A stretch of 64,000 nt of DNA from Candidatus Nitrosocosmicus franklandus (GCF_900696045.1 NZ_LR216287.1:124001-188000), one strand, 5' to 3'; positions 7,737-37,973 are shown, counted from the first letter of the stretch. Program-made: numbers and translations. The notes: generated by a model not told the origin, from the sequence alone.

Positions 7737-8585
7737 TTAATTAAAAGTTTCTAGATTTTTTATAAATTCTAATCCTGATTTTATATGAGTTTGATAGTCA
7801 GAATCTGAAATTGTTGGTTCAAAACTGATATAACCCAAGTAAGAAATTTCTTTTAGCGATTGTACTATACTCTTAAAATCAATATGGCCCTGGCCGGGCA
7901 TTTTTCTGTTGTTATCGGCAAAGTGCATATGAACAAGCCTTTGACCGACATCATTATTAGCTCGTAATATGGTCTTTCTGAAAGAGTCTTCTTCTATGTT
8001 CATGTGAAATGTGTCTAACATAAGCTTCAGGTGTGGACAGTTTTTAAGCAGAATCAAAGTGTCATCATAGTTGCAGCAGTAGGGAGTTGAGTAACGATTA
8101 AGCGGTTCTAAAACTAATTGCACGTCATTGTCCTTTGCAATCGACGATAGCTCATTTAAAATTGGTATACTATTATAAAGTAATCTGGTCTTTTCATCTT
8201 TGGCTACATTACTGTGTGTAACATCAAGATAATTTATCGGATCGGATAATAGGCAAATGTTGATTTGGGTTCCTCCCAAGTATCTGCAAAGATCAATACA
8301 TTTTAAAACATAATCTCTTGTATATTTTACCATGCTTTGATCGTTACTTAACAATCTTCTTTTCCAACCATTAGTACTAGATTTGCCCCACATACCCGTC
8401 AGACCTATAATGCGAAAATTAAATGTAGAAAAAATATCTTTATAGAATTTTTTGTTGACTTCGTCAGGTTCTCCAAACATTTCTAAATTTTGGAAACCAA
8501 TCTGACTTAGATTTGAAAGTGTTTCATCGACATCCTCTTTTAGCCTTAAAAAGGATGATAATGTTATTGAATAAGAAAAAGCCAT
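7737..8585 (-). CDS. Sugar-phosphate isomerase/epimerase, TIM barrel (ebo-like module)
   Basis: Xylose-isomerase-like TIM barrel, closest in pattern to D-tagatose/psicose 3-epimerases: the metal and catalytic acids lie in LVLEPLNRYST, LMLDTFHMNIEE, HMHFADNNRKMPGQGHIDF and YISFEP. It should interconvert a ketose, inosose or related polyol using a divalent metal. It follows the EboF-like phosphatase gene with a 40-base gap, so the two probably form one transcript. In bacterial ebo modules a TIM-barrel protein (EboE) accompanies the phosphatase; this one is shorter than EboE as I remember it (about 280 versus about 390 residues), so it is a functional analogue at best. Confidence 0.85.
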   Translation of the reverse strand: MAFSYSITLSSFLRLKEDVDETLSNLSQIGFQNLEMFGEPDEVNKKFYKDIFSTFNFRIIGLTGMWGKSSTNGWKRRLLSNDQSMVKYTRDYVLKCIDLCRYLGGTQINICLLSDPINYLDVTHSNVAKDEKTRLLYNSIPILNELSSIAKDNDVQLVLEPLNRYSTPYCCNYDDTLILLKNCPHLKLMLDTFHMNIEEDSFRKTILRANNDVGQRLVHMHFADNNRKMPGQGHIDFKSIVQSLKEISYLGYISFEPTISDSDYQTHIKSGLEFIKNLETFN

Positions 8586-8625
8586 TTTAAAAATAAAGGT
8601 ATTGTTTATTTATTTATTGGATCTT

Positions 8626-10101
8626 TTATATAAAATTATTATTTGTAACCAGCCTGAATACATCTAAACAGCTAATTATAGGAAGGCCATTGTACTTTTC
8701 TAAAGTAATGTTACTGTCGATTTTTTTATTACTAGCAAAAGCTGCTAGTCCTTCTCCAGTTTCAAGATTATATGGTCGTCCATGAGAACCTTTGATGAGC
8801 TTTACGTTTGTTGAAATGCATTTTCGTTGAGGGTCGATAAAGAGATCAAGTGGATCGTATCCGGGCTTTCTGTGAATGTCCACTGTTTTGGTAAAGGTCG
8901 GAGCTTTATAAATTTGAGGATTTGCCGATCTATTTTCAGTAAGAGAGTCTGTGTTTGAAGTTGGTGGTTCGGTTGTTGTTGTTGTTGTTATTTCTGCCCC
9001 TCTGTCATCATACCACCAGTAATAACTAAACCATTTATCTTTGTCTGAAATTGCAATCAGGTCACCGCTTCTACTATGATTTATTTTTAGATTTACTTTT
9101 TCGTTTTCGTCACATACCTTTTCTATACCTGAAATCTCTTCTAGGGTTTTTTTGATTGAGCTGATTTTTGATTTTCCATTCTTATTGAGGTAAATATGGG
9201 CTATCTGATGGTCGACCATAGCAAAGGCTTCGCTAAATTCAAAATCAATGTATTCTTTATTCTTGATAGTTCTAACCTTTAGTAAACCCTTGTCTCTGAG
9301 GATTCTGTTGATTGGCACAGCGTCAGATACATCGTTAAAGCCGTACTCTGACAGCAAAAGAAATTGTGTTTGATCAAAAATTCCTGCTTTTTTGGTGCTT
9401 TCAACGATAGAGCCTATATAGTTGTCTATCTTTTGTAAATCCTCTTTTACCTGAGTGCTAGATTTACCGTGTTTTTGTGCAGAGTAATCAAGCTGGGGGA
9501 AGTAAGCGTATAACAGGTTTGGCCTTTCATTATCAATGGTATACTGAACGGATTTGGTAATCCACTCTGAGGACTTTATTGAGGCAAACGGACCCCAATA
9601 ATCCATTAAATTAAACTCCCCAATCTTGTCCATAATTTTTTCATAGTAGTTAACAGGCCTTGAGTAACACCATAGATCCATCTTACCTGTCTCTAGGTGA
9701 ATTGGGCGTGGAGAAATAACAATGTCATTATTTGTGTATAGCGAGTTTTGCCAAAATAACATGGCAGTCTTTAACTGATTATTTTTTTCTTTTATGATAT
9801 CCCATGCTTTTTGTGACTGCACAAGATTGGTAGACTGCTCCCAAAATAGGGTCTGGAGGTTTTCTCTGTCAAACATTCCGTTTGAAATTATTCCATGCTC
9901 TTGAGGATATTTACCCGTAGTGATACTTGATTGGACTGTGCATGTTACTGATGGAAAGACTGGCTTCATATATCCAAAATCACCATCATCATTTCCAATT
10001 AAATTTGAAATGTTAGGACACAAATTTGTTTGAGAACTTAGGTGTGAAACATCTAATCCAACAATATCTAGAACAAAAAAATATTTGTTACCTGCTGACA
10101 A
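8626..10101 (-). CDS. EboF-like alkaline phosphatase superfamily protein
   Basis: Nucleotide pyrophosphatase/phosphodiesterase-type member of the alkaline phosphatase superfamily. Metal and nucleophile motifs in order: LDIVGLDVSH (first Asp), PSVTCTVQSS (Thr nucleophile), YFPQLDYSAQKHG (Asp and His), LLSEYGF, AMVDHQIAHIY, and near the end TVDIHRKPGYDPLDLFIDP and IKGSHGR. The last two signatures match what I remember of EboF from ebo clusters. There is no signal peptide, so it is cytoplasmic. A Thr/Pro/Ser-rich insert (about residues 366-395) sits just before the HRKPGYDP motif. The start is a TTG. The TIM-barrel gene follows in the same operon. Confidence 0.85.
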   Translation of the reverse strand: MSAGNKYFFVLDIVGLDVSHLSSQTNLCPNISNLIGNDDGDFGYMKPVFPSVTCTVQSSITTGKYPQEHGIISNGMFDRENLQTLFWEQSTNLVQSQKAWDIIKEKNNQLKTAMLFWQNSLYTNNDIVISPRPIHLETGKMDLWCYSRPVNYYEKIMDKIGEFNLMDYWGPFASIKSSEWITKSVQYTIDNERPNLLYAYFPQLDYSAQKHGKSSTQVKEDLQKIDNYIGSIVESTKKAGIFDQTQFLLLSEYGFNDVSDAVPINRILRDKGLLKVRTIKNKEYIDFEFSEAFAMVDHQIAHIYLNKNGKSKISSIKKTLEEISGIEKVCDENEKVNLKINHSRSGDLIAISDKDKWFSYYWWYDDRGAEITTTTTTEPPTSNTDSLTENRSANPQIYKAPTFTKTVDIHRKPGYDPLDLFIDPQRKCISTNVKLIKGSHGRPYNLETGEGLAAFASNKKIDSNITLEKYNGLPIISCLDVFRLVTNNNFI

Positions 10102-10402
10102 CTTTCTAATCTATCCTAAATTAGAACTTGATTCATTTATTAGTTGTTTTTTTTTTGGAATGTAGAAAGAAAGGAAGGTATGAAAAAAGAAGAAGAAGAA
10201 GGATCTGAAAAGAAAAGAAAAGAAAAGAAAAGAAAAGAAAAGAAGAGCAAACCACTAACAAAATTGGCTTTTGTAATTTAATCTCTATTACCTAGACACA
10301 AATATGTCATTTGCAAAAATAGCCTCAACAAAATAAATAGATTGAATTTCATTCAATCTTTATTATGAGCATTTATTGTAGACTAAAACTCAGATAGATA
10401 CC
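10102..10402. other. Spacer with a pentanucleotide microsatellite
   Basis: No gene. Contains the promoter region of the phosphatase gene on the left and an (AAAAG)n run at about 10207-10245. A short direct echo (ttgaatttcattcaatc, about 10342) forms a small hairpin. Confidence 0.5.
10207..10245. repeat. (AAAAG)n microsatellite
   Basis: About eight tandem copies of a five-base unit, about 105 bases upstream of the TTG of the phosphatase gene. It is prone to slippage and is purine-only on the plus strand. Confidence 0.9.
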
Positions 10403-10549
10403 CTAATCAATTTTTTGTATCTTTAAAAGAACTTCGCATCGAGGACAACTCAAGCCTAGAAATTTAAATAACAAGTCACCATCTTCGAATTCTTCTGTGA
10501 TTAGCTGACTAAGATTAATACTCTCCTTGCAGTGAGGACATTTTGCCAT
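10403..10549 (-). CDS. Small zinc-ribbon protein, 48 aa
   Basis: Two CxxC knuckles (CPHC near residue 4 and CPRC near residue 36) frame a short acidic middle, which is the pattern of a zinc ribbon. The frame is open further upstream, but the ATG at 10549 is chosen because a TATA box (10571-10582) lies 25-30 bases before it, giving a leaderless message, and because the protein then begins MAKCPHCK. Likely a nucleic-acid- or protein-binding accessory factor; no specific role can be stated. Confidence 0.72.
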   Translation of the reverse strand: MAKCPHCKESINLSQLITEEFEDGDLLFKFLGLSCPRCEVLLKIQKID

Positions 10550-10570
10550 CGAAAGATGATATAGGGTTCG

Positions 10571-10582
10571 TATATATTTAAA
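10571..10582 (-). promoter_or_regulatory. TATA box of the zinc-ribbon gene
   Basis: On the minus strand this reads as AAATATATA-type sequence, centred about 28 bases before the ATG at 10549, the spacing expected for a leaderless archaeal transcript. Confidence 0.65.
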
Positions 10583-10677
10583 TTTATTAAGGTTTTTTGG
10601 GTTCATGGGAAATTATTGTCTTTACCGTATTCAGAGATAGTAAGTTAGTCATTTTATTTGCTGAGAATAAAGGGATT

Positions 10678-10704
10678 GTTTATATAAGTGTTAGGTGCAC
10701 CTAA
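10678..10704 (+). promoter_or_regulatory. TATA box overlapped by a palindromic operator-like site
   Basis: GTTTATATAAG at 10678-10688 is followed at 10691-10704 by the perfect 14-base palindrome TTAGGTGCACCTAA and then by a similar half (TAGTGCATCTAA). A dimeric regulator bound here would cover the start site of any transcript running right. Confidence 0.45.
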
Positions 10705-10734
10705 TAGTGCATCTAATAAGCGAAAAGCATTTGT

Positions 10735-10772
10735 TGTCAAGCAAAAAAACCACCAAATCCCTTTGCTTGACA
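10735..10772 (+). repeat. Perfect 11-bp inverted repeat (hairpin)
   Basis: TGTCAAGCAAA (10735-10745) and TTTGCTTGACA (10762-10772) pair perfectly around a 16-base loop. In a transcript from the promoter at 10678 it would be a hairpin near the 5' end, immediately before the short frame at 10778. Confidence 0.6.
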
Positions 10773-10777
10773 TTCCA

Positions 10778-10855
10778 ATGGCTTATCTCAAAACCAATAC
10801 ACGTCTGGAAAATCTGGAAGTTGTAGATAGGGGTGACGACCACCGACTGGTATAA
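10778..10855 (+). CDS. Possible 25-residue leader or micro-ORF
   Basis: ATG at 10778 opens a short charged peptide (MAYLKTNTRLENLEVVDRGD and five more residues). It is supported only by position: a TATA box, a palindrome and a hairpin precede it. It could equally be part of a non-coding RNA. No homologue is recalled. Confidence 0.25.
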   Translation: MAYLKTNTRLENLEVVDRGDDHRLV

Positions 10856-11192
10856 TAGAAAAAAAAGGTTGGCAAATCAAAAAAGCAGAAAAAAGGCGGA
10901 TTTTAAAAGTCACCCAATTTTCAACTTTCATTTTAGCATATCAAGAAAGTTTAATTCAAAATTTTAGAGCGAATATCTTATCGGGATAATGTATTGGTCG
11001 GAACAAGTTTCATTCTCAATGTCTTAAAGGACCAAATTGGAGAGATAAACCCATTTGCATATGATGATACAATGGCTTGTTCTAATGTTATTAGCAAAAT
11101 ACCTGGTATCTTGTCCAAGTCATCAAAAATAAGTCAATTTTCCAAAAATTGTATGTTATATTTAACTATTATTAATTGAATAATTATATAAA
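10856..11192. other. Spacer, possibly with a short frame
   Basis: A TTG-started frame at 10994-11179 (+) would give 61 residues ending 13 bases before the next gene, but neither composition nor promoter supports it strongly. Nothing else is recognised. Confidence 0.35.
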
Positions 11193-11561
11193 ATGAAGAA
11201 TTATCAAAAGCTCACTATTATTACTGCTATTTTGGGACTTATAATTCCACTTATTGGGATTGCCCTTTATTTTTTCATCAATAGCTTTGTAGGCATTCCT
11301 ATATTGGCATTATTTGTTGGATGGGCCTTGCTTATTGCAATCGGAATAATCGCTATTAATGTAGGTGCAATAATTGCTGCTTTTAAGATCAGAAATAAGA
11401 AATTGGTAGGAGGTATTCTGATTGCCTGCGGTGTGTTGTTGTTTGCTTTAATTCAATGGTTTGCCATTCCTGCACTTGTGTTATTTATAATTGCAGGAAT
11501 TATGGCCTTTAGAGACAAAGACCAAGTTACTAATTTGAAAGAAAAAATTGGTAAAGAGTAG
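11193..11561 (+). CDS. Small membrane protein, four TM helices
   Basis: The 122-residue product is almost entirely hydrophobic: helices near 7-29, 33-58, 70-86 and 88-108, then a charged tail (RDKDQVTNLKEKIGKE) probably in the cytoplasm. The ATG directly follows AATTATATAAA, so the TATA element is too close for that start unless transcription begins upstream. I know no family beyond generic small archaeal membrane proteins. It lies between parts of the ebo-like module, but nothing links it functionally. Confidence 0.7.
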   Translation: MKNYQKLTIITAILGLIIPLIGIALYFFINSFVGIPILALFVGWALLIAIGIIAINVGAIIAAFKIRNKKLVGGILIACGVLLFALIQWFAIPALVLFIIAGIMAFRDKDQVTNLKEKIGKE

Positions 11562-11639
11562 TAGAGCTTTGCCTCAGCAATTCTCTTGAACAGCGAATTG
11601 TTGAGGCAAATTATCTACTGCTAATAATACTGTAGAGGT

Positions 11640-12122
11640 TTAACCGTTCAACTCTTGTTCGATTTCCCTTTCGGCATCCTCACATTCCGACAGATTTCCA
11701 ATACCCGAGGAACCGGGAACCAAACTGCAGTTGTTAATGTTATAATAGTGTACGCCATTATCATCTACTAAATATTCTCCTCTTTGCATTTCATTTGCAG
11801 TTGAAAGCTCGCTTTGGTTGGAACCTAGAGTGCTGGTATTTTGGACATTGCCTGAAGATTCATTATCGGAATTGGGGTTTGGAACAATTGTTACAGTTGC
11901 CACATCAAGCTGGTCCTTGCTGACACCATCAACACCTGTACTAGAATTCTGGAATGTCGAATTACCTTCGGTGACAGTGTTTGAGGGGCTTGATACTGAA
12001 GTAGATGCTAGTGCAACTAACCCACCGTCGTCTTCAACATGTGTCAATGACGACAAGACTGCACCAAAAATACTGCTCAATAATAGAAGGGTTAAAAACA
12101 ATTGACGCTCTTTTTTCATCAT
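11640..12122 (-). CDS. Secreted Ser/Thr/Asn-rich protein
   Basis: An N-terminal signal (KKERQLFLTLLLLSSIFGAVLSS) is followed by a polar linker rich in Ser, Thr and Asn with many NxS/T sites. A small C-terminal domain (residues about 110-160) has two or three cysteines (NNCSLVPG, SECEDAE), probably disulfide-bonded outside the cell. Two adjacent ATG codons are available. The function is unknown; a cell-surface or secreted small protein. Confidence 0.65.
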   Translation of the reverse strand: MMKKERQLFLTLLLLSSIFGAVLSSLTHVEDDGGLVALASTSVSSPSNTVTEGNSTFQNSSTGVDGVSKDQLDVATVTIVPNPNSDNESSGNVQNTSTLGSNQSELSTANEMQRGEYLVDDNGVHYYNINNCSLVPGSSGIGNLSECEDAEREIEQELNG

Positions 12123-12249
12123 TGATCTTTTTAATTAGATAGAGCTTAAGAATCTATTCCAAACTCTATTACAACAGAAAAGAATTGTAGTTACAAGATT
12201 CTTTTTAGGCCTATTTTTATACCGTTTAAATCCATCCAGCGAAGAAAGA

Positions 12250-13251
12250 TCAGGTCATGCTAATCCTTTTGCTTAGATAGATAGACGGCAATATTAGAAG
12301 AGCGGTCGAAATGCCTGCGATTGGTCCTGATAATCCTGCAATGAATGCCGAGTCCAACAGGATTAGCAAAAGTAGCATATTTTTTACTATGAACTGCATT
12401 ATTAGACTTCCTTGTAAATGACGTTGGAGTGTCTGAGCTTTATGGTAAATAAAGGTTACAACAATAGCTATAGCCACAATAAAAATCAAGTATTCTTGTA
12501 GGTGTACTACCAGAAAAGAGCCAAAAAAACCAACAATTACCAGGAAAATTATATAAGTGTAATAAACATTTTTGACACTTGCAACTTTTACTTGTTTATC
12601 ATCAAACTCTCTTCTTGTTTCTTTAGAGCTTATCCAAGTAAGTACAAATACGTGAAAAAAGACCGAGCCTAGAGCTAATAATAATAATAATAATATTGTC
12701 GGCTCTAGATAGGCAGGATTGAAAGATGGAGGAAATGTGACATTGTTAGGAGTTTGACTGGAAAAGCCAAATAGAATACTAAATCCATAGAATACGTTTA
12801 GAGCTCTAATTCCTCCCATGAGAAAAGGTCTAAAAAATCCGGACTTTAGTTTATAGTTGTATACAAGTATAGAGAGTACAAGCGTACCAGAAATTCCTAC
12901 TGCGATTATGTTAACAAAAAAAGACAAAAAGAAACCTGCACAAAATAAGGCAATCATGAGAAAAATCGCATGCCTTTCTTGTACCCTACCTGAGGACAGC
13001 GGCCTTGTTGGTCTTTCAATCTTGTCAGTCTTTATATCAAATAGATCGTTAGATACTAGTCCTCCCAAATATAACGATATTGATGAAAAGATCAATATTA
13101 CAAGTTCTTCTAAATTGCTTTCTGACGTTCCAAATATTACAGCACCCTGAAACGCAAAATGTGCTATCAAAAATCCCAATATAATATCTGAAGGTACTGT
13201 AAAGATATTGGGGATTCTTAGAAGCTTAAGGTATGGATTGTCTAGCAACAA
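12250..13251 (-). CDS. EboC-like UbiA superfamily membrane protein
   Basis: Polytopic protein of the UbiA prenyltransferase superfamily with about nine helices. The first Asp-rich motif is intact (SNDLFDIKTDKIERPTRPLS, near residue 65-85). The second canonical DxxxD motif of true prenyltransferases is not visible: the corresponding loop reads FVLTWISSKETRREFDD. Lack of the second motif and the opening LRIPNIFTVPSDIILGFL both recall EboC. It may therefore carry or transport a substrate rather than prenylate one. TTG start. It lies 40 bases after the second TIM-barrel gene on the same strand, so they are probably co-transcribed. Confidence 0.82.
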   Translation of the reverse strand: MLLDNPYLKLLRIPNIFTVPSDIILGFLIAHFAFQGAVIFGTSESNLEELVILIFSSISLYLGGLVSNDLFDIKTDKIERPTRPLSSGRVQERHAIFLMIALFCAGFFLSFFVNIIAVGISGTLVLSILVYNYKLKSGFFRPFLMGGIRALNVFYGFSILFGFSSQTPNNVTFPPSFNPAYLEPTILLLLLLALGSVFFHVFVLTWISSKETRREFDDKQVKVASVKNVYYTYIIFLVIVGFFGSFLVVHLQEYLIFIVAIAIVVTFIYHKAQTLQRHLQGSLIMQFIVKNMLLLLILLDSAFIAGLSGPIAGISTALLILPSIYLSKRISMT

Positions 13252-13291
13252 AATATTTCATAAAGTAAGATTGATAACCCTTCTTTCTATA

Positions 13292-14122
13292 TCAATGGTC
13301 TAAATTTTGCAGATAATTAAAGGAAGTTGTTGCAGCCTCCAAGGGTTTATCCTTGTATGGGTACAGTTCAACAGTTATGTATCCATCAAAGCTGATATCT
13401 TTAATCGCTTTAAATACCTGTTTAAAATCAATTGTACCTAATCCAGGGATTAAGTGATAGTGAACCCTGTCTTTGATATCTGCCATATGAAAATGCTCGA
13501 TATACTCTCTAAGATCTGATATCAAGGTACTTGGATCCTCATTGACACAGTAAAAATGCCCAATGTCAAAGTTTAGGCGCAAATATTTTGAATCAAAATT
13601 CTTCATAAATTCTAAAAATTGTCTAGAGTTTTCTATCAATAGGCCTGGCTCTGGTTCAATAAGGATTTTAATCTGTTTTTTTTCAGCAACTGGTAATACG
13701 GATTCTATACCCTGTCTAAAAAATTGTAAGGCTTTTTCTTTTGACAAATTTTCGGAAGGAAGTAGGGGACCACCTGGTTCTACAGAGATATTTTTGGCTC
13801 CCAATTGATATGCCAGATTTATGCAGTCTATGGTATGATTGATTCTTTGTTCTCTTTTATCTTGATTCTTTTCAATCCATGAAGGGTGATACGTATCGCC
13901 TAATGCAAATAAAGTAAATGCATTAAGGTTAGAGATTTCGAGTTTATTTTCCTCTAACATGCTTTTTAGTTCTTGCAACATTTTATCTGTAAAGTTAGCA
14001 GGATAAGCATGAGGAACATCACACATTATTTCAATACCTGTATAACCAACTTGAGATATCAATTTTGTAGAATCGATTAGAGAATAATTGGTAAAAGCAT
14101 TAGAACTAAATGCAAATTTCAT
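13292..14122 (-). CDS. Sugar-phosphate isomerase/epimerase, TIM barrel (second copy)
   Basis: A second xylose-isomerase-like TIM barrel, only distantly similar to the one at 7737. The metal-binding acids and bases appear in ILIEPEPG, LNFDIGHFYC, EHFHMADIKDRVHYHLIPG and YITVELYPY. At 276 residues it is a normal single-domain member. It is the first gene of a unit that continues into the EboC-like gene. A TATA box about 20-29 bases upstream places the transcript start at the ATG. The substrate is unknown, but an inosose, keto-sugar or hydroxypyruvate-like compound is typical of the family. Confidence 0.85.
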   Translation of the reverse strand: MKFAFSSNAFTNYSLIDSTKLISQVGYTGIEIMCDVPHAYPANFTDKMLQELKSMLEENKLEISNLNAFTLFALGDTYHPSWIEKNQDKREQRINHTIDCINLAYQLGAKNISVEPGGPLLPSENLSKEKALQFFRQGIESVLPVAEKKQIKILIEPEPGLLIENSRQFLEFMKNFDSKYLRLNFDIGHFYCVNEDPSTLISDLREYIEHFHMADIKDRVHYHLIPGLGTIDFKQVFKAIKDISFDGYITVELYPYKDKPLEAATTSFNYLQNLDH

Positions 14123-14141
14123 AATTTATCTATTTTAATTA

Positions 14142-14151
14142 CTATATATAG
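14142..14151 (-). promoter_or_regulatory. TATA box of the TIM barrel-EboC unit
   Basis: CTATATATAG (its own reverse complement) ends 20 bases before the ATG at 14122, consistent with a leaderless transcript. Confidence 0.65.
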
Positions 14152-14338
14152 TCATTTTATTTCGCCTCTTGTCCTTTTATCCAAAAATGGGAACTAGGTA
14201 CAAAAAAAAGAGTTGTTAACTTTTTATCTTAAATTTATCAATCAATTTCAGAGTTAAAAAAAATGAAAAATAGATTTATCCACAGACCGAAATCTTATTA
14301 ATCGTATATCACAGCGTTTCAAACTAAGCGTATTTTGG

Positions 14339-14959
14339 TCAAACAGTCGTTGTAGGCTTAGGCTCAGGATTGTTATAGACTCCACTATTCGTCGTGTGAC
14401 CATAATCTTGGAGAAAATCATACAATACAACGTGATGTCCAGCTCCTCCACTACCTCCACCTGCTAGAAAATCCATGATAAATATCATAGCGATAAAACC
14501 GACGACGACAGCCACCAGAATTATAATTTTGTTCTTCATGTTAGCCCAAGTCATCTTGTTCTTTTGATTCGGACTCGGTGAACCTGGGGCAGTAGATGAG
14601 GAGATTGCCGATACAGATGGGGTGGGATTATTCTTCTTCTCGTAAAAGGCTCTTATTCTTTCTTCTTCTTCCAGTTCGCGCAACCTTTGTTCATGCTTTG
14701 ACGTATTTAATACTGGAACCTTTTTAACTGTAGCGCCATCGATGGCAGATTTATGAACCTCATAAAGGATAAGAGTTTTTTTTCCTTCTTTGGAATACCT
14801 ATTGAATAAATCCAGGGCCTCCTCATAATTTGAAAATTCAACGGTAGAACTAGTTTTAAATTTGCCACTTATCTCTAGTAGGAATTTTTTTATAACATTT
14901 GAATCGTTTTCATTGTTATCTTCTATTCCTTCCATGTTTAATTCGCTACCTTTTTCCAC
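14339..14959 (-). CDS. Single-pass membrane protein with cytoplasmic N-domain
   Basis: Unrecognised. The N-terminal 110 residues are charged and look folded (VIKKFLLEISGKFK, SSTVEFSNYEEALDLFNRYS, KKTLILYEVHKS), followed by a coiled-coil-like Glu/Arg stretch, a Ser/Pro linker and one membrane helix at about 144-165. The C-terminal part is Gly- and His-containing (GGGSGGAGHH) and ends in PKPTTTV. The helix near the C-terminus leaves about 40 residues outside. A second ATG eight codons in is possible. It lies between the two halves of the ebo-like set. Confidence 0.65.
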   Translation of the reverse strand: MEKGSELNMEGIEDNNENDSNVIKKFLLEISGKFKTSSTVEFSNYEEALDLFNRYSKEGKKTLILYEVHKSAIDGATVKKVPVLNTSKHEQRLRELEEEERIRAFYEKKNNPTPSVSAISSSTAPGSPSPNQKNKMTWANMKNKIIILVAVVVGFIAMIFIMDFLAGGGSGGAGHHVVLYDFLQDYGHTTNSGVYNNPEPKPTTTV

Positions 14960-15070
14960 TTAAAATACAATATTCTAGTATATACATTCTTTGGAAATAA
15001 AAAAAACGAACAATGTATAATTCCAAAAACAGTTGACACTCCTTCATTTATACAATGCTTATATCCAAAT

Positions 15071-15229
15071 ATGTCTAAAGGTATTAGTATGGCAACCGAT
15101 CAATCTGGTGCTACAAATTCAGGACACACCTGTAACCTTTGTGGTCTCACTTTTCAAACAAAAGATGAGAAAGAAGAGCATATGAAACTCGAACACTCAG
15201 AACACAAGCAACCTAGTGGCGTGTCTTAA
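15071..15229 (+). CDS. C2H2 zinc-finger mini-protein, 52 aa
   Basis: A single classical zinc finger: CNLCGLTFQTKDEKEEHMKL with the final His four residues later gives C-x2-C-x12-H-x4-H. The rest of the protein is short and polar. Two in-frame ATGs are possible (15071 and 15089). The AT-rich boxes near 15045 and 15058 and the AAAGGT before the second make the second ATG (46 residues) at least as likely. Such one-finger proteins occur in Nitrososphaeria and may bind DNA or protein; no target is known. Confidence 0.72.
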   Translation: MSKGISMATDQSGATNSGHTCNLCGLTFQTKDEKEEHMKLEHSEHKQPSGVS

Positions 15230-16045
15230 ATTTTTTATAATTATTTCGAATTTTCATTTTTCATTCGAAATAAAATCAAGCATTTTATCTTTAAAGTTTA
15301 GGAGTCTCTGACTAAGGGATCTTTTAAGTAAAAAACACAATTGCAATAAATAAAATGAAGAGACAATTAAGGACGGTTTATGACTCTAGTATGTTAGTCA
15401 TTTAAATTATGATGATAGTCTATAATAATAATAAATCAGAAAATTATCATTTGAAGTTTCTTTGTCGTAATATGAATTTAAAAATGCTTATGCACTGAAT
15501 CTTGTCCAACTCTTGAATCACTACATGATAACAAAATTAGAAGCTCAAGGAAGAAGAGTTTTAAAATTGAATTCAAAGCATTAAAAATAGAACACAAAGA
15601 AATTGAAAACTCTCATTATGCCAAACCCTCAAAATTCTGAAAAATAACTACTCAACAATCAAAATATATTTCTGCGGTAACGGTATAATATGTGACACAA
15701 TTTGGAATTTTTCTCTGAATAATCCAAAATAGTACCATCATGTTATCACAGATAAGCTATTTTTTGGATCAGGGTATAAATTGCTACACTAAGACAGAGA
15801 TAAGAAATGATGATTTTTTTGAGTAATGAATAAGACCAATTACTTATTAGCCAGATATATTATGACTTGACTTTCCATCCAAAAATGAATGTGTATTGCG
15901 CAGCTCAAAGTATTAGATAATATATTGGGGATTGATATTTCGAATCGCTTTATAGGTTAATAATTTCAAACTAAAATCGCGAATTTTATCCAACTCTACT
16001 GAAGCTAGAGTTTACAAAAAAGAAATGAGCATTATAATGCAATTC
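15230..16045. other. Gene-free spacer
   Basis: About 800 bases of AT-rich sequence with no frame worth calling and no repeat or hairpin that stands out. Confidence 0.4.
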
Positions 16046-16585
16046 TTATCTAGAATCTCTGCCGTCACCGCCGTTACCACCATCTCCTCCAGAGCCACCT
16101 GAGCCACCTGAGCCACCGTCACCGCCGTTACCACCATCTCCTCCAGAGCCACCTGAGCCACCTGAGCCACCTGAGCCACCGTCACCGCCGTTACCACCAT
16201 CTCCTCCAGAGCCACCTGAGCCACCTGAGCCACCATCATCTATATTCTGTAAAATTCTAACCCTTTGATTATCATCCGTCATGTTCTTATTCTCTATCCA
16301 ACAGGCGGTGCTACCAGAGCCACCGTCACCACCGTCTCCTCCAGAGCCACCATCACCACCACTACTACCTATCGCCCGTTCACCAGGCTGTCCTTCTTCC
16401 CCAGGTTGTCCTTCTGTTACATTATTCTTACAGTATATTACATAGGATTCTTCATCCACTGAGCTCGTATTTTGAGTTAAACTTGCATTGTCGGAGCTGT
16501 TGTTAGTTGAATACGCACTATTACCATACGGAAACCCGAAAAGTGAGAAAGCTAAAAGAACTGTACATACAAGGATACTATTCAT
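16046..16585 (-). CDS. Secreted glycine-rich repeat protein (GGDGGSGG type)
   Basis: The signal peptide covers residues 1-24 (ILVCTVLLAFSLFGFPYGNSA). Next comes a short collagen-like GQPGEEGQPGERA stretch, then glycine triplets GGx with x = Ser, Asp or Asn. These are interrupted by one 30-residue non-repetitive island containing a cysteine (TACWIENKNMTDDNQRVRIL). The last 60 residues are near-perfect copies of a 19-22 residue block at DNA level. Start fixed by a TATA-like box (16611-16620) 26-35 bases upstream. Likely an extracellular matrix or envelope protein. The antisense frames are artefacts of the repeat. Confidence 0.8.
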   Translation of the reverse strand: MNSILVCTVLLAFSLFGFPYGNSAYSTNNSSDNASLTQNTSSVDEESYVIYCKNNVTEGQPGEEGQPGERAIGSSGGDGGSGGDGGDGGSGSTACWIENKNMTDDNQRVRILQNIDDGGSGGSGGSGGDGGNGGDGGSGGSGGSGGSGGDGGNGGDGGSGGSGGSGGDGGNGGDGRDSR

Positions 16586-17118
16586 ATTATGTTAATTTAT
16601 GCATCACAAAATATTAATATTTATGACTATAACCCAATCAAATCTCTTCCGATAACTTTAAGAGATATTCATGGATTTCAAAAATAAAAATGAGGGCTAG
16701 ATCTTGCAATTGTATCTTTCTTTGTGGTTACTTATAGTCTTCTGATATGTGATGCAAACAAGGCTATGTCAAACTTCTCTAAGATTCAAATTAATGAGGT
16801 CATCATTGAAATATCCTTTGCATGTGCCTTACTAAAAACCTCAAAACTACTCAAATCTTTCAAATATTAGGACAGGATGCGGAAATGTAAGCTCAAATTT
16901 TATTATCAAACATGATATTAGTAGTTAAGAATCATCGAATTCTAGGTGATCTGTTAAAAATCTCGTCCGATTTATTTCCAAAATTGATTTACTCGATGAC
17001 CAAAGTACAAAAGAATCCCTTCCATAAATAGTCCAATTCAAGTCCATCGGTCTCAGAATCTCGTCCATACGCGGTCCAACGCTATTCAAACGAGATTGGT
17101 GTTAATAGAGAGAGAGAT
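16586..17118. other. Gene-free spacer
   Basis: No gene seen. The right end has a short AG run (agagagagag, about 17108-17117) before the HTH protein gene. Confidence 0.4.
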
Positions 17119-17169
17119 GTGATTTATTTTTTTTATATTTGGAAATATATATTACTGTTATGCTTTCAA

Positions 17170-17703
17170 TTGGCAAAAAAAATTCCTTTAATAATTAAAG
17201 AAAAGGTAGGTAAGTTATTGATTTCTGGGATGTCACGTGACATGATCGCTAAACACATGGGGATAGGAGCTGGATCTGTATCAAGGATTGCTGATGAAAT
17301 AATGTCAAGAGAGATTCCTGACTTGTACGCATTGAGAGAGATCGCTGTAAAAATAAAAAGTGATGGTTTTGATTGGAGAAACCTAGCATCTTTTGTTAGG
17401 TTTTCGAATTTGCTAGAACAAATGGGTTTATCTCAATTGGACATTGAGAATTTAATTCAGTATATAGAAAGCCATTGTTATAAAACTGACCAGAATATTC
17501 ACGATTTTGTAATTGGTATGAATGAAAATCTCAAATTTGCATTTGAATTGGGAGTTCCCATTTATGAATTATCAGAGACCATAAAACAAAAGAAAGAAGA
17601 GATAAAAGCTTTGGAAAATGAGCGAAACAGATTAAAGACTTTGATTCAAAAATATAGGTTTGATTATTCAAAAATCCATGGGAGAATGCCTGACTATTTA
17701 TGA
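17170..17703 (+). CDS. Helix-turn-helix plus coiled-coil protein
   Basis: The N-terminal third carries a resolvase/transposase-like HTH (LLISGMSRDMIAKHMGIGAG, then SVSRIADEI). The middle is helical (FVRFSNLLEQMGLSQLDIEN), and the end is a coiled coil (ETIKQKKEEIKALENERNRL). It may regulate transcription or belong to a mobile element, since HTH-coiled-coil orphans of this sort are frequent in Nitrososphaerales. The frame is open to 17119, but the TTG at 17170 is chosen because AT-rich TATA-like stretches (17133-17155) lie directly before it. There is no partner gene nearby. Confidence 0.6.
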   Translation: MAKKIPLIIKEKVGKLLISGMSRDMIAKHMGIGAGSVSRIADEIMSREIPDLYALREIAVKIKSDGFDWRNLASFVRFSNLLEQMGLSQLDIENLIQYIESHCYKTDQNIHDFVIGMNENLKFAFELGVPIYELSETIKQKKEEIKALENERNRLKTLIQKYRFDYSKIHGRMPDYL

Positions 17704-18140
17704 CCTTGAATTCGTAACTGGATCTCTTTTTGAGCTCGTGCATAAGACCCCAGGTACATAATACCAATGCGGATTGTCAAAAGATCACATCATGTTAACA
17801 TCCCCGTCTGTTTCTTTTTTTGAATGAGATATTGTACACTACAAGACATGTTTTCATCATTTTGAATTAATATCCTCTGCTGCTGGTAATCGATACTTCA
17901 AACATTCATTGGAGAATTTGTACATGCTGAAAAATGCACATTATAATCATTATCTTAAAAAGGAGATTCGTATGACGGGAATCAACCTAATTGTTTCTCA
18001 TGTTTCAAAACAAAAGAGCAATATTCCAACCACATGTCAGTTGCATAGTTTAATTAATTTGAAATTATTTATCAAAGATTTAGATGTTTGTTTAGAGTGC
18101 GAAACGAATCATCCAAAATCATCGGTGAAATAATGCATGA
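17704..18140. other. Spacer, doubtful small frame
   Basis: A frame at 17909-18133 (+) of 74 residues runs towards the end of the dehydrogenase gene. It contains a possible Cys pair (DVCLEC), but no promoter or family supports it. Otherwise nothing is seen. Confidence 0.35.
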
Positions 18141-19226
18141 CTAAAATTTGTTGATTGTGGACTTTAATCCTATGAAAGATTCGGAGGTTTTTATGGCGTC
18201 CTCAAGCCTTTCAAGTTCAAAAGTATTTGTGATCAAATCTTTAATTCTTATTTCTTCTGAACTTACCAATTCCATCGCCTTCCTAAGGTTTAATGGAGTA
18301 GAAGAAAAACTTCCCATTACTGTGATCTGATTATAGTGAATAGCATTTGCTTCGGCAGTCAAATTTTTAGCAAAGTTATCTGACTCATCAGTTGTTGAAT
18401 TCTTTATTCCAGAAAAAATAATTATCTTGCCATTCTTGTTTGCGAGCATGAATGCGTCTTTAAGTGAATTCACATTATTATTAGAAACAAAGACTAGATT
18501 AGGGGATTGTTTATCCGTCAACTCCTGGGTAAGCTCCGATACATGTTTAAAATTCGTATCGTTGCTAGTAACGTTATAGACTCCATCTGCTCCCAATTTG
18601 GCAGCCATTTTTAACCTGTGTTCTATTTTTCCTATAACTATAACTTTCTTGTCGGTAAAATCTTTTTTTAAAAGCATTAATTGCATCAGTCCAATTGGTC
18701 CATCACCTATGATGACTATAGAATCGAAATTTTTCGATTTAATCTGATTTATTCCGTTTATGCAGCAGGCCAAGGGTTCAATAAGTGAAGCTTCCTCATT
18801 AGTAACGTTATCTAATACTGGTATGATACCATCTATTTCTACCAAAGTCTTTGGAATCGAAATATATTCAGCAAAGCCGCCATTTACAGTAGATCCCAAT
18901 TCTTTTAAATTATAACATAAGTTATATTTTTTTTTATTACAGTACCAGCAATGCATACAAGGAATTACCGGGTATACTGATACCCTTTGGTTAGGTCTAA
19001 TTCTTGAATTTTTTCCTATTATTTCGTTGGTGGTTTCAGCACATATTTCATGTCCAAGAACGATAGGTGGTTTGACCTTAAAACTTCCATTTCTAAAGGT
19101 TCGGACATCGTAACTGCAAACAGAACAAGATAATACTTTTAGAATTACATCGTCATTAGAATGACTTTTCAGGTTTAAATTCTCAATTTTAATATTATTA
19201 GGTCCATAAAAATAAGCTGCTCTCAT
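18141..19226 (-). CDS. Zinc-dependent alcohol dehydrogenase family protein
   Basis: Medium-chain dehydrogenase with GroES-like and Rossmann domains. GHEICAET marks the catalytic zinc site, CMHCWYCNKKKYNLC gives the four structural zinc cysteines, and VIIGDGPIGLMQL is the NAD(P) loop. The frame is open to 19253, but the ATG at 19226 gives the typical start MRAAYFYGP and suits the TATA region at 19266. It is divergent from the EboB-like hydrolase gene, with which it shares its promoter region. This suggests it oxidises or reduces a polyol or inosose in the same pathway, perhaps in place of the missing EboD. Confidence 0.85.
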   Translation of the reverse strand: MRAAYFYGPNNIKIENLNLKSHSNDDVILKVLSCSVCSYDVRTFRNGSFKVKPPIVLGHEICAETTNEIIGKNSRIRPNQRVSVYPVIPCMHCWYCNKKKYNLCYNLKELGSTVNGGFAEYISIPKTLVEIDGIIPVLDNVTNEEASLIEPLACCINGINQIKSKNFDSIVIIGDGPIGLMQLMLLKKDFTDKKVIVIGKIEHRLKMAAKLGADGVYNVTSNDTNFKHVSELTQELTDKQSPNLVFVSNNNVNSLKDAFMLANKNGKIIIFSGIKNSTTDESDNFAKNLTAEANAIHYNQITVMGSFSSTPLNLRKAMELVSSEEIRIKDLITNTFELERLEDAIKTSESFIGLKSTINKF

Positions 19227-19255
19227 CGATTTGTGTTTATTTCTTTTAAACAAAG

Positions 19256-19273
19256 TTATAATTGTTATATATA
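19256..19273. promoter_or_regulatory. Shared divergent promoter of dehydrogenase and TatD genes
   Basis: TATATATA at 19266-19273 is self-complementary. It lies 25 bases before the ATG at 19298 on the plus strand, and about 40 bases before the ATG at 19226 on the minus strand; a second AT-rich element (TTATAATTG) is near 19256. The two genes are likely controlled together. Confidence 0.55.
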
Positions 19274-19297
19274 GAGATATGTTTCAATAGGGTAAGT

Positions 19298-20107
19298 ATG
19301 GCACGATTTTTTGATCCTCATATTCACATGTATTCTCGAACAACAGATGATTATGAAAGGATGTCTATAGCCGGCATTGAAGTGATAGTACAGCCTTCAT
19401 TCTGGCTGGGCTCGCCACGAACTAGTGTGGGGACGTTTGTAGACTATTGGGAACATATGATCACTTTTGAAACTCAAAGAGCAGAAGAATTTGGAATAAA
19501 ACATTATACATGTATTTCGGTAAATCCAAAAGAATCTATGGAACGACCTCTGGCGTTAGATGCATTAGACATGATGATGAAAAAAAAATTTCTAAATCGA
19601 GATGGGGTTGTAGCTTTAGGTGAAATAGGCTATAACTTGATTAACGACCTAGAAGAAGAGGTATTTGTAAAGCAATTAGATATATGCAAGAAAGAAAATC
19701 TGCTGGCAATGATCCATCTGCCTCATAATAATAAACCAGAAGGAATGAAAAGGATGCAAAAAATTTTTGAAACTGGTAATTATGATTTTAAAAAGATTCT
19801 AATCGACCATAATACTGAAGAAACGATCAAAATGACCCTGGACCTCGGAGCATGGGCCGGATTGTCTGTTTATCCTGTTACTAAATTATCTCCTGATCGA
19901 GTTATCAAAATTGTAAATCAGCATGGTAGCGAGAAGATTATGGTCAATAGTGCAGCTGATTGGGGAGTCTCTGACCCCTTGAGTGTGCCATTAACCGCAA
20001 GGGAAATGAGAAAAAACAATTGTAGGTCCACTGATATAGAAAATGTAACCTTTTTTAATGCTTATGAGTTTTATAGGCAGTCAGATAAATTTAAGTGGAA
20101 GCCATAA
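19298..20107 (+). CDS. EboB-like TatD family metal-dependent hydrolase
   Basis: Amidohydrolase-type TIM barrel of the TatD branch. Ligands: HIHM near residue 7, GEIGYN, MIHLPHNN, ILIDHN and VNSAADWG. The opening DPHIHMYSRTTDDYERM and FWLGSPRTSVG match my memory of the TatD-like hydrolase of ebo clusters rather than DNase-type TatD. The start at 19298 (269 residues) is set by the TATA box 25 bases upstream; the frame is open further. The substrate is unknown; hydrolysis of an amide, ester or lactone in a secondary metabolite is the family expectation. It is divergent from the dehydrogenase gene. Confidence 0.87.
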   Translation: MARFFDPHIHMYSRTTDDYERMSIAGIEVIVQPSFWLGSPRTSVGTFVDYWEHMITFETQRAEEFGIKHYTCISVNPKESMERPLALDALDMMMKKKFLNRDGVVALGEIGYNLINDLEEEVFVKQLDICKKENLLAMIHLPHNNKPEGMKRMQKIFETGNYDFKKILIDHNTEETIKMTLDLGAWAGLSVYPVTKLSPDRVIKIVNQHGSEKIMVNSAADWGVSDPLSVPLTAREMRKNNCRSTDIENVTFFNAYEFYRQSDKFKWKP

Positions 20108-20920: not shown

Positions 20921-21463
20921 TTAGATGCAACCTAATGTGTTGCATATTGCAATTGCGTGACCACCATTGCCACCGTTTCCAGCGTTACCAGCATTACCAC
21001 CATTAGCGTCTCCTGAATTTATATCTCCTGCGTTCTGTGTACTTCCACCATCAGCGTCTCCGCCTGAACCACCGTTACCACCATCAGCGTCTACTTCACC
21101 AGATATGCTGTATCCAACTGTTTCTTCAAGTGCTGCATCTAATGGTTGTAAGAATTCAGGGGTTACAACACCTGTATTGTCGTTTCCACCGTTTCCACCG
21201 TTTCCACCATCGCCAGCAAATCCACCGTTTCCACCATCGCCAGTTTCAATTTCATTCTCACCAGTGTCTCCACCAGCTCCACCGTTTCCACCGTTTCCAC
21301 CGTTTCCACCGCTACCTGCAGTTAGTTCAAATGCAGAAACAGAGAGCGAGGATGGGATTAACGTTGCCAAGAGAGCAAATGCTAGTGCTCCAAAAATTGC
21401 AACGCTTTTCACAGTTAATCTTTTTTCCTTGTTGCTATTTGATTCATTATTTAGTTGATTCAT
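20921..21463 (-). CDS. Secreted glycine-rich repeat protein with GGNGG module
   Basis: An unusually long signal region, with a basic polar lead of 20 residues followed by a hydrophobic core at 21-44 (VAIFGALAFALLATLIPSSL). The mature chain has a GGN repeat block (50-95), a non-repetitive segment (100-120), and the module [17 protein letters not shown] with STQNAGDINSGD (122-152), which recurs in the protein at 24369. It ends in CNTLGCI, a potential disulfide. The TATA-like box at 21484-21494 predicts a leaderless message. Presumably a cell-surface or matrix protein. Confidence 0.8.
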   Translation of the reverse strand: MNQLNNESNSNKEKRLTVKSVAIFGALAFALLATLIPSSLSVSAFELTAGSGGNGGNGGNGGAGGDTGENEIETGDGGNGGFAGDGGNGGNGGNDNTGVVTPEFLQPLDAALEETVGYSISGEVDADGGNGGSGGDADGGSTQNAGDINSGDANGGNAGNAGNGGNGGHAIAICNTLGCI

Positions 21464-22844: not shown

Positions 22845-23069
22845 CGTGAGATTGCATTAATACTTTCATGAAATTTAATTGTTCTTGTATTGTTATTTCC
22901 GTCCTATTGTATTTCCACTTACAATTCGCTCGATTCAATCGATTATGGATCTCAAATGAGATATATGATAAGAAACTTTACGAAATATATTTATTTAATA
23001 TAATAATTTGGCAGACTTTTCATATGGACCTCTGATATATCATGTATGTTATTACCTTTTCTGATAATC

Positions 23070-23378
23070 ATGAATACTAGTAGCAAACTCGTGATAACGA
23101 CGTTACTGAGTTTTTCTTTAATGATGGGACTATTTGCTTCACAAAGTTATCAAAGTCTATTCGCACAAACAATAACAGATTTGTACCTGGACTCACCAAT
23201 TCCCTTAGATAACAATCAGACATCTACATCAGAATCTACATTTGCATTGAATGAAGGCCTAGACGGTCAAGACGGTCAAGACGGTCAAGACGGTCAAGAC
23301 GGTCAATCTAGGAATGGAAGTGACGGTCAAGACGGTCAAGACGGTCAAGACGGGAGATCTGAATTAATCCTACCATAA
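23070..23378 (+). CDS. Small secreted collagen-like protein (GQD repeats)
   Basis: The signal peptide is MNTSSKLVITTLLSFSLMMG and onward to about residue 33 (LFAQ). A 40-residue polar linker follows, then two blocks of the triplet Gly-Gln-Asp, four to five copies each, separated by SRNGSD. Gly-X-Y with X=Gln and Y=Asp is collagen-like although no proline is present. The frame begins at 23046, but the ATG at 23070 is preferred because GATATATC at 23034-23041 is a well-placed TATA box. It lies 225 bases from the IS6 copy, in the middle of the glycine-rich gene group. Confidence 0.72.
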   Translation: MNTSSKLVITTLLSFSLMMGLFASQSYQSLFAQTITDLYLDSPIPLDNNQTSTSESTFALNEGLDGQDGQDGQDGQDGQSRNGSDGQDGQDGQDGRSELILP

Positions 23379-24368: not shown

Positions 24369-25295
<927 letters not shown>

Positions 25296-35136: not shown

Positions 35137-35875
35137 TTCAAAAGTATGATTTTGGTAAACAATCTTTTAGAAGAATACTAATATAATAGAATTATAAATT
35201 AAATCTATGTGGTTACAAATAATAAAGATGTATTTTAGTTTGATATTTGTCATAGTTATATTATCTGTATTTGTACAATCAGCAGTGCCTTTTCAAATCG
35301 CTAATTCTCAATCACAAGGTAGTAACTATCCTATTCGAGATACAGAATTTGTCGAATACTATGATCCATATTCCATGATAAATATTTCTTATCCATCTTT
35401 TTGGCAAAAATCCAATGTATCTAATTCAGAAAGTATATCATTTGTATCACCCATAAAAACTATTGGTGTGATTGTTCAAAACGCACCTACACTTAATGCA
35501 ACAATTGATGAGATAGCTATGAACACAATCAGTTTCATAAAGGAAAGTTTTTTGAATGCTACTATTCTTGATATTACTACATCATCTTCTGAAGATGGAT
35601 CCACAATTCAGAGTCTAACATTTACCTTCGTGAATGGTAAAGATAAAGAAAAAGTATTACTTTTATCAAAAATTTTCGAAGATAGGACTTTCACCTTTTT
35701 GTATTATGCAGACGATATCTTGTTCGATCATTTTACTCCACTAACATCAGTTATGTTAGATTCATTTCAAATACCTTATTTTAGAGATGCATTTTCACCA
35801 AAGGATTTATACAATGTAGAATTATTATCTAGAGAAGATCTTCTTCCAACCACACAAACATCAAATACTACTAAT
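35137..35875 (+). repeat. 739-bp direct repeat, copy 1
   Basis: Matches 44777-45515 with a constant offset of 9640 bases; the encoded protein is the same residue for residue and the DNA looks unchanged on inspection. It includes the 70-base upstream region and the first 223 codons of the PsbP-like protein gene. Confidence 0.9.
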
Positions 35876-36682
35876 GCAAACACTACCTCTAATTCCTCAG
35901 GCACAAGCGAATCAAATAATCGACAACCCTCAGAAAACCAAAGCCTTCCAACCACACAAACATCAAATACTACTAATGCAAACACTACCTCTAATTCCTC
36001 AGGCACAAGCGAATCAAATAATCGACAACCCTCAGAAAACCAAAGCCTTCCAACCACACAAACATCAAATACTACTAATGCAAACACTACCTCTAATTCC
36101 TCAGGCACAAGCGAATCAAATAATCGACAACCCTCAGAAAACCAAAGCCTTCCAACCACACAAACATCAAATACTACTAATGCAAACACTACCTCTAATT
36201 CCTCAGGCACAAGCGAATCAAATAATCAACTATCTTTAGATACCATAGATTTCGCCACATATGAAAATAATGATTTAGGTATAAAAATTGATTATCCTAC
36301 TAACTTCATTAAGATTGAAAATGACAGAGGAAGCACATTTCTTAATGAGGAAAAAAATTTAGGCGCGACTATAGCGGATATACCAATAAAGAATTCTTTT
36401 TTGAATGAATTTAAGAATCAACAAGTCTTACATCTTAACCGAACCTTGAATGACTTTAACATTTTAGATTCAGAAGTGTCCGATTTTATGGGCTATCCTA
36501 CAGATATGATATTATTTAACTATAAAAATGGAACACAATTATATAAAGGGGTGCAATTTATCAAGGTATCAAATGATAATACCTCTGCAGATATTTTTAC
36601 GTACTTCGCTCCTTCCGTTCAAGTATTTGATGAATTCTTACCAGTTGCTGTGGAAATGTTCAGATCGCTAGAATTATCATAG
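35207..36682 (+). CDS. Secreted protein, two PsbP-like domains with Thr/Asn/Ser repeat linker
   Basis: Signal peptide at residues 1-31 (KMYFSLIFVIVILSVFVQSA). Domain 1 (about 45-205) and domain 2 (about 345-491) both start with the pattern of a PsbP/Mog1-like fold (DPYSMINISYPSFWQKSN; ENNDLGIKIDYPTNFIKIEN). Between them three full 34-residue repeats and one partial copy (LPTTQTSNTTNANTTSNSSG then TSESNNRQPSENQS) form a likely glycosylated, extended spacer. A lone surface lipoprotein-like or secreted protein; function unknown. Its 5' part is duplicated at 44847. Confidence 0.8.
   Translation: MWLQIIKMYFSLIFVIVILSVFVQSAVPFQIANSQSQGSNYPIRDTEFVEYYDPYSMINISYPSFWQKSNVSNSESISFVSPIKTIGVIVQNAPTLNATIDEIAMNTISFIKESFLNATILDITTSSSEDGSTIQSLTFTFVNGKDKEKVLLLSKIFEDRTFTFLYYADDILFDHFTPLTSVMLDSFQIPYFRDAFSPKDLYNVELLSREDLLPTTQTSNTTNANTTSNSSGTSESNNRQPSENQSLPTTQTSNTTNANTTSNSSGTSESNNRQPSENQSLPTTQTSNTTNANTTSNSSGTSESNNRQPSENQSLPTTQTSNTTNANTTSNSSGTSESNNQLSLDTIDFATYENNDLGIKIDYPTNFIKIENDRGSTFLNEEKNLGATIADIPIKNSFLNEFKNQQVLHLNRTLNDFNILDSEVSDFMGYPTDMILFNYKNGTQLYKGVQFIKVSNDNTSADIFTYFAPSVQVFDEFLPVAVEMFRSLELS
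35843..36230 (+). repeat. 102-bp in-frame tandem repeat (34 codons)
   Basis: Copies begin at 35843, 35945, 36047 and 36149, with essentially no differences; the fourth stops after about 27 codons. It encodes the Thr/Asn/Ser-rich linker and can expand or shrink without breaking the frame. Confidence 0.9.
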
Positions 36683-37025: not shown

Positions 37026-37973
37026 GAACCTATCCCAAAATTCGATAGAAATATAGCTCCTTATCTGTCTTGGTAAACCGTGATCTGTGTCCAGACTAAG
37101 GAAGACAAAGCAAAACACACTCTTCCTACTATCAGAAGGATTCCCGATGAATTATGGGACGAGTGTAAGAAGATACTGCCTAAAGAAAAGCCTCCAAAAA
37201 CTGTGGGTAGACCGATTATTCCATATAAACAAGTACTGGATGGGATCCTTTACGTTCTTAGAACGGGGTGCCAATGGAAGATGCTTCCAAAAGAATATGG
37301 TTCAGGTTCTACCTGTCACAGGAGATTTCAGGAGTGGAATAAACTGGATGTATTTAAAAATGCATGGATCAAACTATTGAAAGATTATGAAGATAAAATT
37401 GGTCTCAACTGGACGTGGCAATCCATAGACAGTATATCCATAAAGTCATCTTTAGGGGGGCCAAGACTGGAAATAATCCCACAGACAGGAGCAAACTAGG
37501 CACAAAAAGACACATTTTGACAGAGAAGAAAGGTATTCCTCTATCGGTTGTAATTTCACCTGCTAGCACTCACGACATCAATCTGGTAACAGATGTAGTC
37601 GATAATACAGTAATAAAAAGACCAAAATCATTATCCAGATCGAGACGACGACGACGACGATTACAACATCTGTGTCTTGATAAGGGATACAAATCTGCAG
37701 AGGAAGAACAGGAATTAATCAAACGAGGATATGTTCTGCACATTCCAATCAAGAAGAAAAAAGGGAAGAAAGGTGAAATTGGCAAAGAAATATCAATGCC
37801 AAACCGTAAGAAATATTCTTCCAAGAGATGGGTTGTAGAGAGAACGAATTCATGGCATAACAGGATTAGGAAACTCTTCACACGATATGAAAAGAAGGAT
37901 GAAAACTATCTTGGTCTAGCACAGTTCTCTTGTAGTATAATCATCTATAGAAAGTTAATTTTGGGATAGGCTC
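37026..37973 (+). mobile_element. IS5-type (IS427-like) insertion sequence
   Basis: 948 bp. The 17-base inverted repeats GAACCTATCCCAAAATT (left) and GAGCCTATCCCAAAATT (complement of right end) differ at one base. TAA is duplicated at 37023-37025 and 37974-37976, the TNA type of target duplication common in this group. It encodes two overlapping frames typical of a transposase made by frameshifting. It lies between the PsbP-like gene and the repeat-bearing membrane protein gene, with no sign of interrupting either. Confidence 0.88.
37080..37969 (+). CDS. IS5-type DDE transposase, two frames joined by probable -1 frameshift
   Basis: Frame A (37080-37499, GTG start) has the N-terminal domain (IPDELWDECKKILP, PYKQVLDGILYVLRTGCQWK) and the first catalytic Asp in QSIDSISIKSS. 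Frame B (ends 37969) continues with GAKTGNNPTDRSKLGTKRHI, the second Asp in LCLDKGY and the Glu in WVVERTNSWHNRIRKL. The frames overlap. The run TTTAGGGGGG at 37451-37460 sits just after the first Asp motif and is a good slippage site for a -1 shift. All catalytic residues are kept, so the element may still be active if the shift occurs. Confidence 0.85.

Follow-up and report, generated by a model that had tools for sequence, protein, structure and literature searches.

Ebo-type genes at the locus

We analyzed a stretch of 64,000 nucleotides (the window) from the closed 2.84 Mb genome of the soil ammonia-oxidizing archaeon Candidatus Nitrosocosmicus franklandus, in which six intact open reading frames (ORFs), five ebo-type genes and a zinc dehydrogenase gene, lie within positions 7737-20107. 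The minus strand carries E2 (7737-8585), the second of two xylose-isomerase-like TIM barrels; eboF (8626-10101), a member of the alkaline-phosphatase superfamily (PF01663); eboC (12250-13251), a UbiA-superfamily membrane prenyltransferase; E1 (13292-14122), the first TIM barrel, paired with eboC; and a medium-chain zinc dehydrogenase of the IolM/sorbitol/threonine dehydrogenase type (18141-19253). The last forms a divergent pair with eboB (19298-20107, plus strand), which encodes a TatD-like metal-dependent hydrolase. The eboB ORF opens at 19262 and its conserved start is at 19298, while the true start of the dehydrogenase is probably the ATG at about 19226, because sibling proteins align from its residue 9 onward. 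E2-eboF and eboC-E1 are co-directional pairs with a 40 bp gap in each, and the arrangement described in a first-pass annotation of this DNA, two two-gene units and one divergent pair, holds. That annotation had read the genes as an ebo-type module, and our comparisons support it: EboB, EboC, and EboF each cluster with Ebo proteins of bacteria, and the signature phrases that it had singled out in these three proteins fall in residues conserved among their bacterial counterparts.

The window EboB shares 42-45% identity over 263 aa, its full length, with eight bacterial EboB proteins of reference clusters compared pairwise, and bacterial EboB proteins encoded on plasmids match at 41-45% identity over 97% of the window protein (tblastn), many of them adjoining genes annotated as EboA. 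The six metal ligands (H8, H10, E109, H140, H171, and D221) are all kept, the TatD-type ligands being invariant in the alignment. In a tree of 69 proteins, a long branch with support of 100 parts all Ebo sequences from the TatD-like proteins of the same archaeal class, and nearly all bacterial EboB relatives that could be typed sit in ebo neighborhoods. The full-length identity and the tree indicate that the gene encodes EboB and not an ordinary TatD protein. TatD-like matches in other families of the class (L068-L075) were rejected as distant EboB, given the long separating branch and the lack of ebo genes nearby. In Kiritimatiellae-type loci (L088, L099, L106, and L139), EboB comes after a conserved gene, which has a UVR motif in the sole one tested (L099); L099 has eboC and eboF too, and no other ebo gene was seen near EboB in the other three.

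The best NCBIfam match of the window EboC is the EboC model NF035940 (E 1e-42, 146 bits, below the curated cut-off of 250 bits), and the same model matches the EboC of a compact archaeal operon (L030) with E 1e-57. In the tree, EboC of archaea and of bacteria falls together with the SCO3242 group of actinomycetes, apart from the other UbiA proteins of these archaea (support 97). In both domains, EboC proteins retain NDxxDxxxD but carry TxxSxxE where the usual second Asp-rich motif would be. Model, tree, and motif all identify the gene as eboC, as had been proposed, and not as a quinone or lipid UbiA gene. An EboC homologue from flavobacteria farnesylates quinoline acids (PMC9235831).

The window EboF is 31-37% identical to bacterial EboF over almost its whole length (E down to 1e-105), and archaeal EboF forms a single clade. 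We read its metal site by alignment to a solved Xanthomonas nucleotide pyrophosphatase (2gsn). Relative to that enzyme, four ligands are changed (Asp to Val14, His to Gln209, Asp to Glu252, and His to Tyr253), whereas Thr53 and Asp205 are retained and His440 likely matches the last ligand. Among 81 archaeal and bacterial EboF proteins, the Gln and Tyr are invariant and the Glu is found in 76. Since Q209, E252, Y253, and the signature VDIHRKPGYDP are common to the window protein and bacterial EboF, the shared altered metal site is strong evidence that the gene is eboF, a conclusion with which identity and tree agree, and not a gene for an ordinary protein of the nucleotide pyrophosphatase/phosphodiesterase (NPP) type. 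Judging from these replacements, ordinary phosphodiesterase activity is doubtful for the whole EboF family. The family-wide loss of canonical metal ligands is apparently unremarked in those parts of the ebo papers that we consulted.

The two TIM barrels belong to the EboE superfamily but are not EboE orthologues. E1 scores only 44.5 bits against the EboE model NF035939 (cut-off 250) and E2 does not match it, and both score better against IolO-type epimerases than against EboE. The metal tetrad Glu-Asp-His-Glu is conserved in every archaeal barrel and intact in both window proteins, whereas the His is replaced by Gln in 15 of 15 EboE and 8 of 8 actinomycete cluster barrels; model score and active-site residue together rule out E1 or E2 as EboE. 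E1 matches the smaller barrel of Streptomyces ebo clusters over its full length (E 1e-27), its relation to EboE being weaker, while the closest characterized models for E2, which comes after EboF in compact operons, are the IolO 5-keto-L-gluconate epimerase and the D-psicose 3-epimerase, both matched below cut-off.

Co-inheritance and dispersal of the module

We examined co-occurrence in 200 Nitrososphaeria genomes, scoring EboB as present at E <1e-80 and EboC at E <1e-15. EboB is present in 24 genomes, and EboC occurs in 23 of these and in no others. The Fisher p values over the 200 genomes, in which relatedness makes p overstate significance, are 3e-29 for EboB with EboC and 1e-19 for EboB with the dehydrogenase; without the genus of the window they are 1e-22 and 6e-11, respectively. 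Carriers are patchy within genera, species with and without the module being found in the same archaeal genera, and the pattern is therefore not one of simple shared descent.

Of 584 relatives in a scan of genome contigs, the best 80 were kept. In ten loci that belong to other genera than that of the window, EboB-E1-EboC-EboF-E2 is contiguous, often with the dehydrogenase divergent from EboB, while Nitrosopumilaceae-like genomes have the order TIM-EboB-E1-EboC-EboF with another zinc dehydrogenase adjoining. The anticipated co-occurrence and adjacency are thus borne out across genomes. The dehydrogenase subfamily of the window (E <1e-70) is found in 18 of the 19 carriers of the EboB-E1-EboC-EboF-E2 type and in one non-carrier, so the dehydrogenase is an integral part of the archaeal module; two genomes with two EboB copies also have two copies of it. 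The unit, comprising EboB, EboC, EboF, two metal-dependent xylose-isomerase-like barrels, and a zinc dehydrogenase of the polyol type, is inherited as a single, patchy accessory module in ammonia-oxidizing archaea.

The first-pass annotation had called the module dispersed, which is correct for the genus of the window but not elsewhere, where most carriers have a compact single operon. Within the genus, two genomes (L059 and L060) keep EboB-E1-EboC together, others (L046 and L047) have the module in three pieces with the ancestral order and orientation, and in the window the dehydrogenase-EboB pair is inverted relative to the rest. Because the genus shows partly joined, three-piece, and inverted layouts, the dispersal is a late, genus-level derivative of the compact operon, produced by insertion and by inversion of the dehydrogenase-EboB pair.

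Two genomes assigned to another family (G078 and G156) contain Nitrososphaeraceae-type clusters (L030 and L066) that are nested in the EboB, EboC, and EboF trees, and the clusters likely reflect horizontal transfer between archaeal families. In two sibling genomes, a second EboB is accompanied by its own divergent dehydrogenase (L049:8444-10527 and L063:4601-6699), with no other ebo gene detected nearby; the EboB-dehydrogenase pair may be able to work alone.

Five sibling genomes encode a secreted-looking NHL beta-propeller protein immediately upstream of, and co-directionally with, E1-eboC (L046:12446-13729, L047:6975-8195, L048:5672-6847, L062:6448-7764, and L061:11241-12239). Its best match is ScyF of the scytonemin cluster, at 239 bits against a cut-off of 350 in the three proteins tested, although NHL repeats inflate such scores. 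Other copies of the NHL protein exist (L086), and its gene is not present in the window between 14122 and 14339.

Relation to known ebo systems

The ebo operon, eboABCDEF, occurs in Bacteroidota, cyanobacteria, proteobacteria, and eustigmatophyte plastids, and the two main papers cover bacteria and algae only (PMC5133447, PMC6282210). In Nostoc, the scytonemin monomer, a sunscreen precursor, stays trapped in the cytoplasm when any one of eboA, B, C, E, or F is deleted (PMC6282210). We found no report of ebo in archaea in the searchable literature, whose coverage leaves out most subscription journals, so that priority is uncertain. Archaeal EboB, EboC, and EboF are homologous to the eboABCDEF proteins over nearly their full length and have the same family motifs, and the archaeal genes likewise cluster and include barrels of the EboE superfamily. 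In contrast, the archaeal module has neither EboA nor EboD, its barrels are not EboE orthologues, and it has an added zinc dehydrogenase, an archaeal host and, in the window, a three-piece layout.

The absence of EboA and EboD, seen at the locus in the first-pass annotation, extends to the rest of the genome. The EboA model NF035938, which was positive in 4 of 4 bacterial controls, matched none of the 200 class genomes and none of 4 further archaeal carriers. An EboD-type cyclase (PF01761) gave no match over cut-off in the genome of the window, where a candidate at G000:C1:2403045 scored 12 bits, under the cut-off, and was rejected. No ebo carrier has PF01761 over cut-off, and the 12 class genomes that do are non-carriers. 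The further suggestion that the dehydrogenase takes the place of EboD stands as far as its co-inheritance with eboB is concerned, whereas functional replacement is plausible but unproven.

A different substitution is seen in an actinomycete variant, present on Streptomyces plasmids and with the same layout in other actinomycetes, whose order is inositol-3-phosphate synthase, SCO3242 prenyltransferase, sugar phosphate isomerase, EboA, EboB, EboE, and EboF. The Streptomyces clusters thus have inositol-3-phosphate synthase in the position of EboD, together with two TIM barrels. Like the archaeal module, this variant is without EboD and has two TIM barrels, the smaller of which resembles E1, as well as EboB, an EboC-like protein, and EboF; unlike it, it includes EboA and EboE, encodes an inositol-phosphate synthase within the cluster, and has no dehydrogenase there. 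Although PF07994 alone picks up the archaeal enzyme poorly, we found an inositol-phosphate synthase domain in 195 of the 200 class genomes, including that of the window, where it is encoded outside the module. Being near-universal in the class, it was discarded as a marker of ebo carriers.

Lentisphaerota and Verrucomicrobiota clusters (L140 and L122, order B-C-F-D-E) resemble the archaeal module in their B-C-F order and have no EboA in cluster or genome, and their EboB groups with most archaeal EboB (SH-aLRT 92). They differ in the presence of EboD and true EboE, and no dehydrogenase was seen in them. The archaeal dehydrogenase and barrels give their highest or nearly highest scores against the IolM (NF041097) and IolO (NF041099) models of Thermotoga-type inositol catabolism, all of them far below the equivalog cut-offs. 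The module is without any other iol gene.

Possible function of the archaeal module

We consider it somewhat more probable than the alternatives taken together that the module represents an archaeal form of the ebo pathway, acting on an inositol-derived polyol through prenylation and with a role related to export. A polyol or cyclitol would be oxidized to a ketone by the dehydrogenase; an inositol-derived substrate is favored because inositol-phosphate synthase is near-universal in these archaea and replaces EboD in the Streptomyces clusters, and the closeness of the dehydrogenase and the barrels to IolM and IolO also speaks for this reading. The TIM barrels might then rearrange or epimerize the ketone, and EboC could attach a geranylgeranyl-type chain to the keto-polyol or a derivative of it. 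EboB would trim the product by hydrolysis, and EboF, with its rebuilt phosphoesterase site, might bind the product or act by non-standard chemistry. By analogy with scytonemin-monomer export in Nostoc, the membrane-anchored product could be a carrier or a modified lipid that helps a metabolite to cross the membrane; this analogy is the weakest step of the mechanism.

Several observations weigh against this archaeal ebo variant. An export role is known from one cyanobacterium only, and the function of every archaeal member is inferred from sequence. Inositol-phosphate synthase occurs with or without ebo and is thus permissive only. The dehydrogenase and the TIM barrels score well under the cut-offs of every characterized family, so that any assignment of their substrates is tentative. 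In the Nitrosopumilaceae-type carriers, the dehydrogenase is another one, only about 25% identical, and the second TIM barrel differs as well; either the substrate varies or these genes are loosely coupled to the rest. Finally, carrier G081 is without the dehydrogenase at the threshold used.

A more specific proposal, which we put forward tentatively and hold to be rather improbable as a whole, is that the archaea use a third chemistry for the ebo core molecule, in which housekeeping inositol or another polyol, the dehydrogenase, and two epimerase-type barrels would serve in place of the heptose cyclase EboD or of the dedicated inositol-phosphate synthase of actinomycetes. On this view, the minimal ebo machinery would comprise EboB, EboC, and EboF, the last of these working through a remodeled phosphoesterase site of non-classical type.

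An unlikely alternative, though one that deserves weighing, is that the archaeon uses the module for its own envelope, to make a specialized polar lipid of the membrane or a precursor of surface glycans in the form of a retained prenylated polyol, and that the module has no part in metabolite export. The nearest solved structure to EboC is indeed an archaeal digeranylgeranylglyceryl-phosphate synthase, but EboC is well apart from archaeal lipid prenyltransferases in the tree. An island of surface-glycan-like ORFs adjoins the ebo region (window 28569-55529, about 28-55 kb), whose products resemble glycosyltransferases, NDP-sugar epimerases/dehydratases, and a polysaccharide flippase, and sibling genomes have relatives of some of these ORFs interspersed among the separate ebo pieces; nevertheless, glycan genes are no fixed part of the compact operons elsewhere. 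The Nostoc phenotype is also one of export, for which all five tested ebo genes are needed (PMC6282210).

Less likely still is that the dehydrogenase, the TIM barrels, and EboB carry out inositol or keto-sugar catabolism to which EboC and EboF were recruited, the likeness to ebo being partial. Such a role would fit the resemblance of the dehydrogenase to scyllo-inosose dehydrogenase IolM and of the barrels to IolO epimerase, as well as the second EboB beside a dehydrogenase in L049 and L063. However, EboB, EboC, and EboF co-occur and, in many genomes, share a single operon with the TIM barrels; the operons showed neither an inositol transporter nor any further iol gene; and the hosts are autotrophs that live by ammonia oxidation. 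That the genes are chance neighbors, namely a housekeeping TatD nuclease, a quinone or lipid UbiA, a generic phosphodiesterase, and sugar isomerases, is extremely improbable: Pfam gives only such broad names, but family trees, motifs, the shared operon, and the patchy co-occurrence refute it, and the genes are not housekeeping because most genomes in the class lack them.

With the archaeal variant of the ebo pathway as the preferred reading, a widespread pathway now extends to a second domain of life. The archaeal module runs without two of the six usual parts, which implies a smaller core of EboB, EboC, and EboF. EboD would have been replaced twice, independently, by inositol-phosphate synthase in actinomycetes and by a polyol dehydrogenase in archaea, and the two replacements suggest that the prenyl acceptor is a cyclitol or a keto-polyol. 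With carriers and non-carriers in the same archaeal genera, lipids and metabolites can be compared directly.

Elsewhere in the window, the ORFs at 16046-16585, 20921-21463, 24369-25295, and 23046-23378 consist mostly of GGDGG/GGNGG or GQDG repeats and have signal-peptide-like starts. Two ORFs at 35207-36682 and 44847-45530 share an identical N-terminal stretch of about 220 residues, one of them containing tandem TTQTSNTTNANTTSNSSGTSESNN repeats, and a transposase-like ORF lies at 37415-37969.

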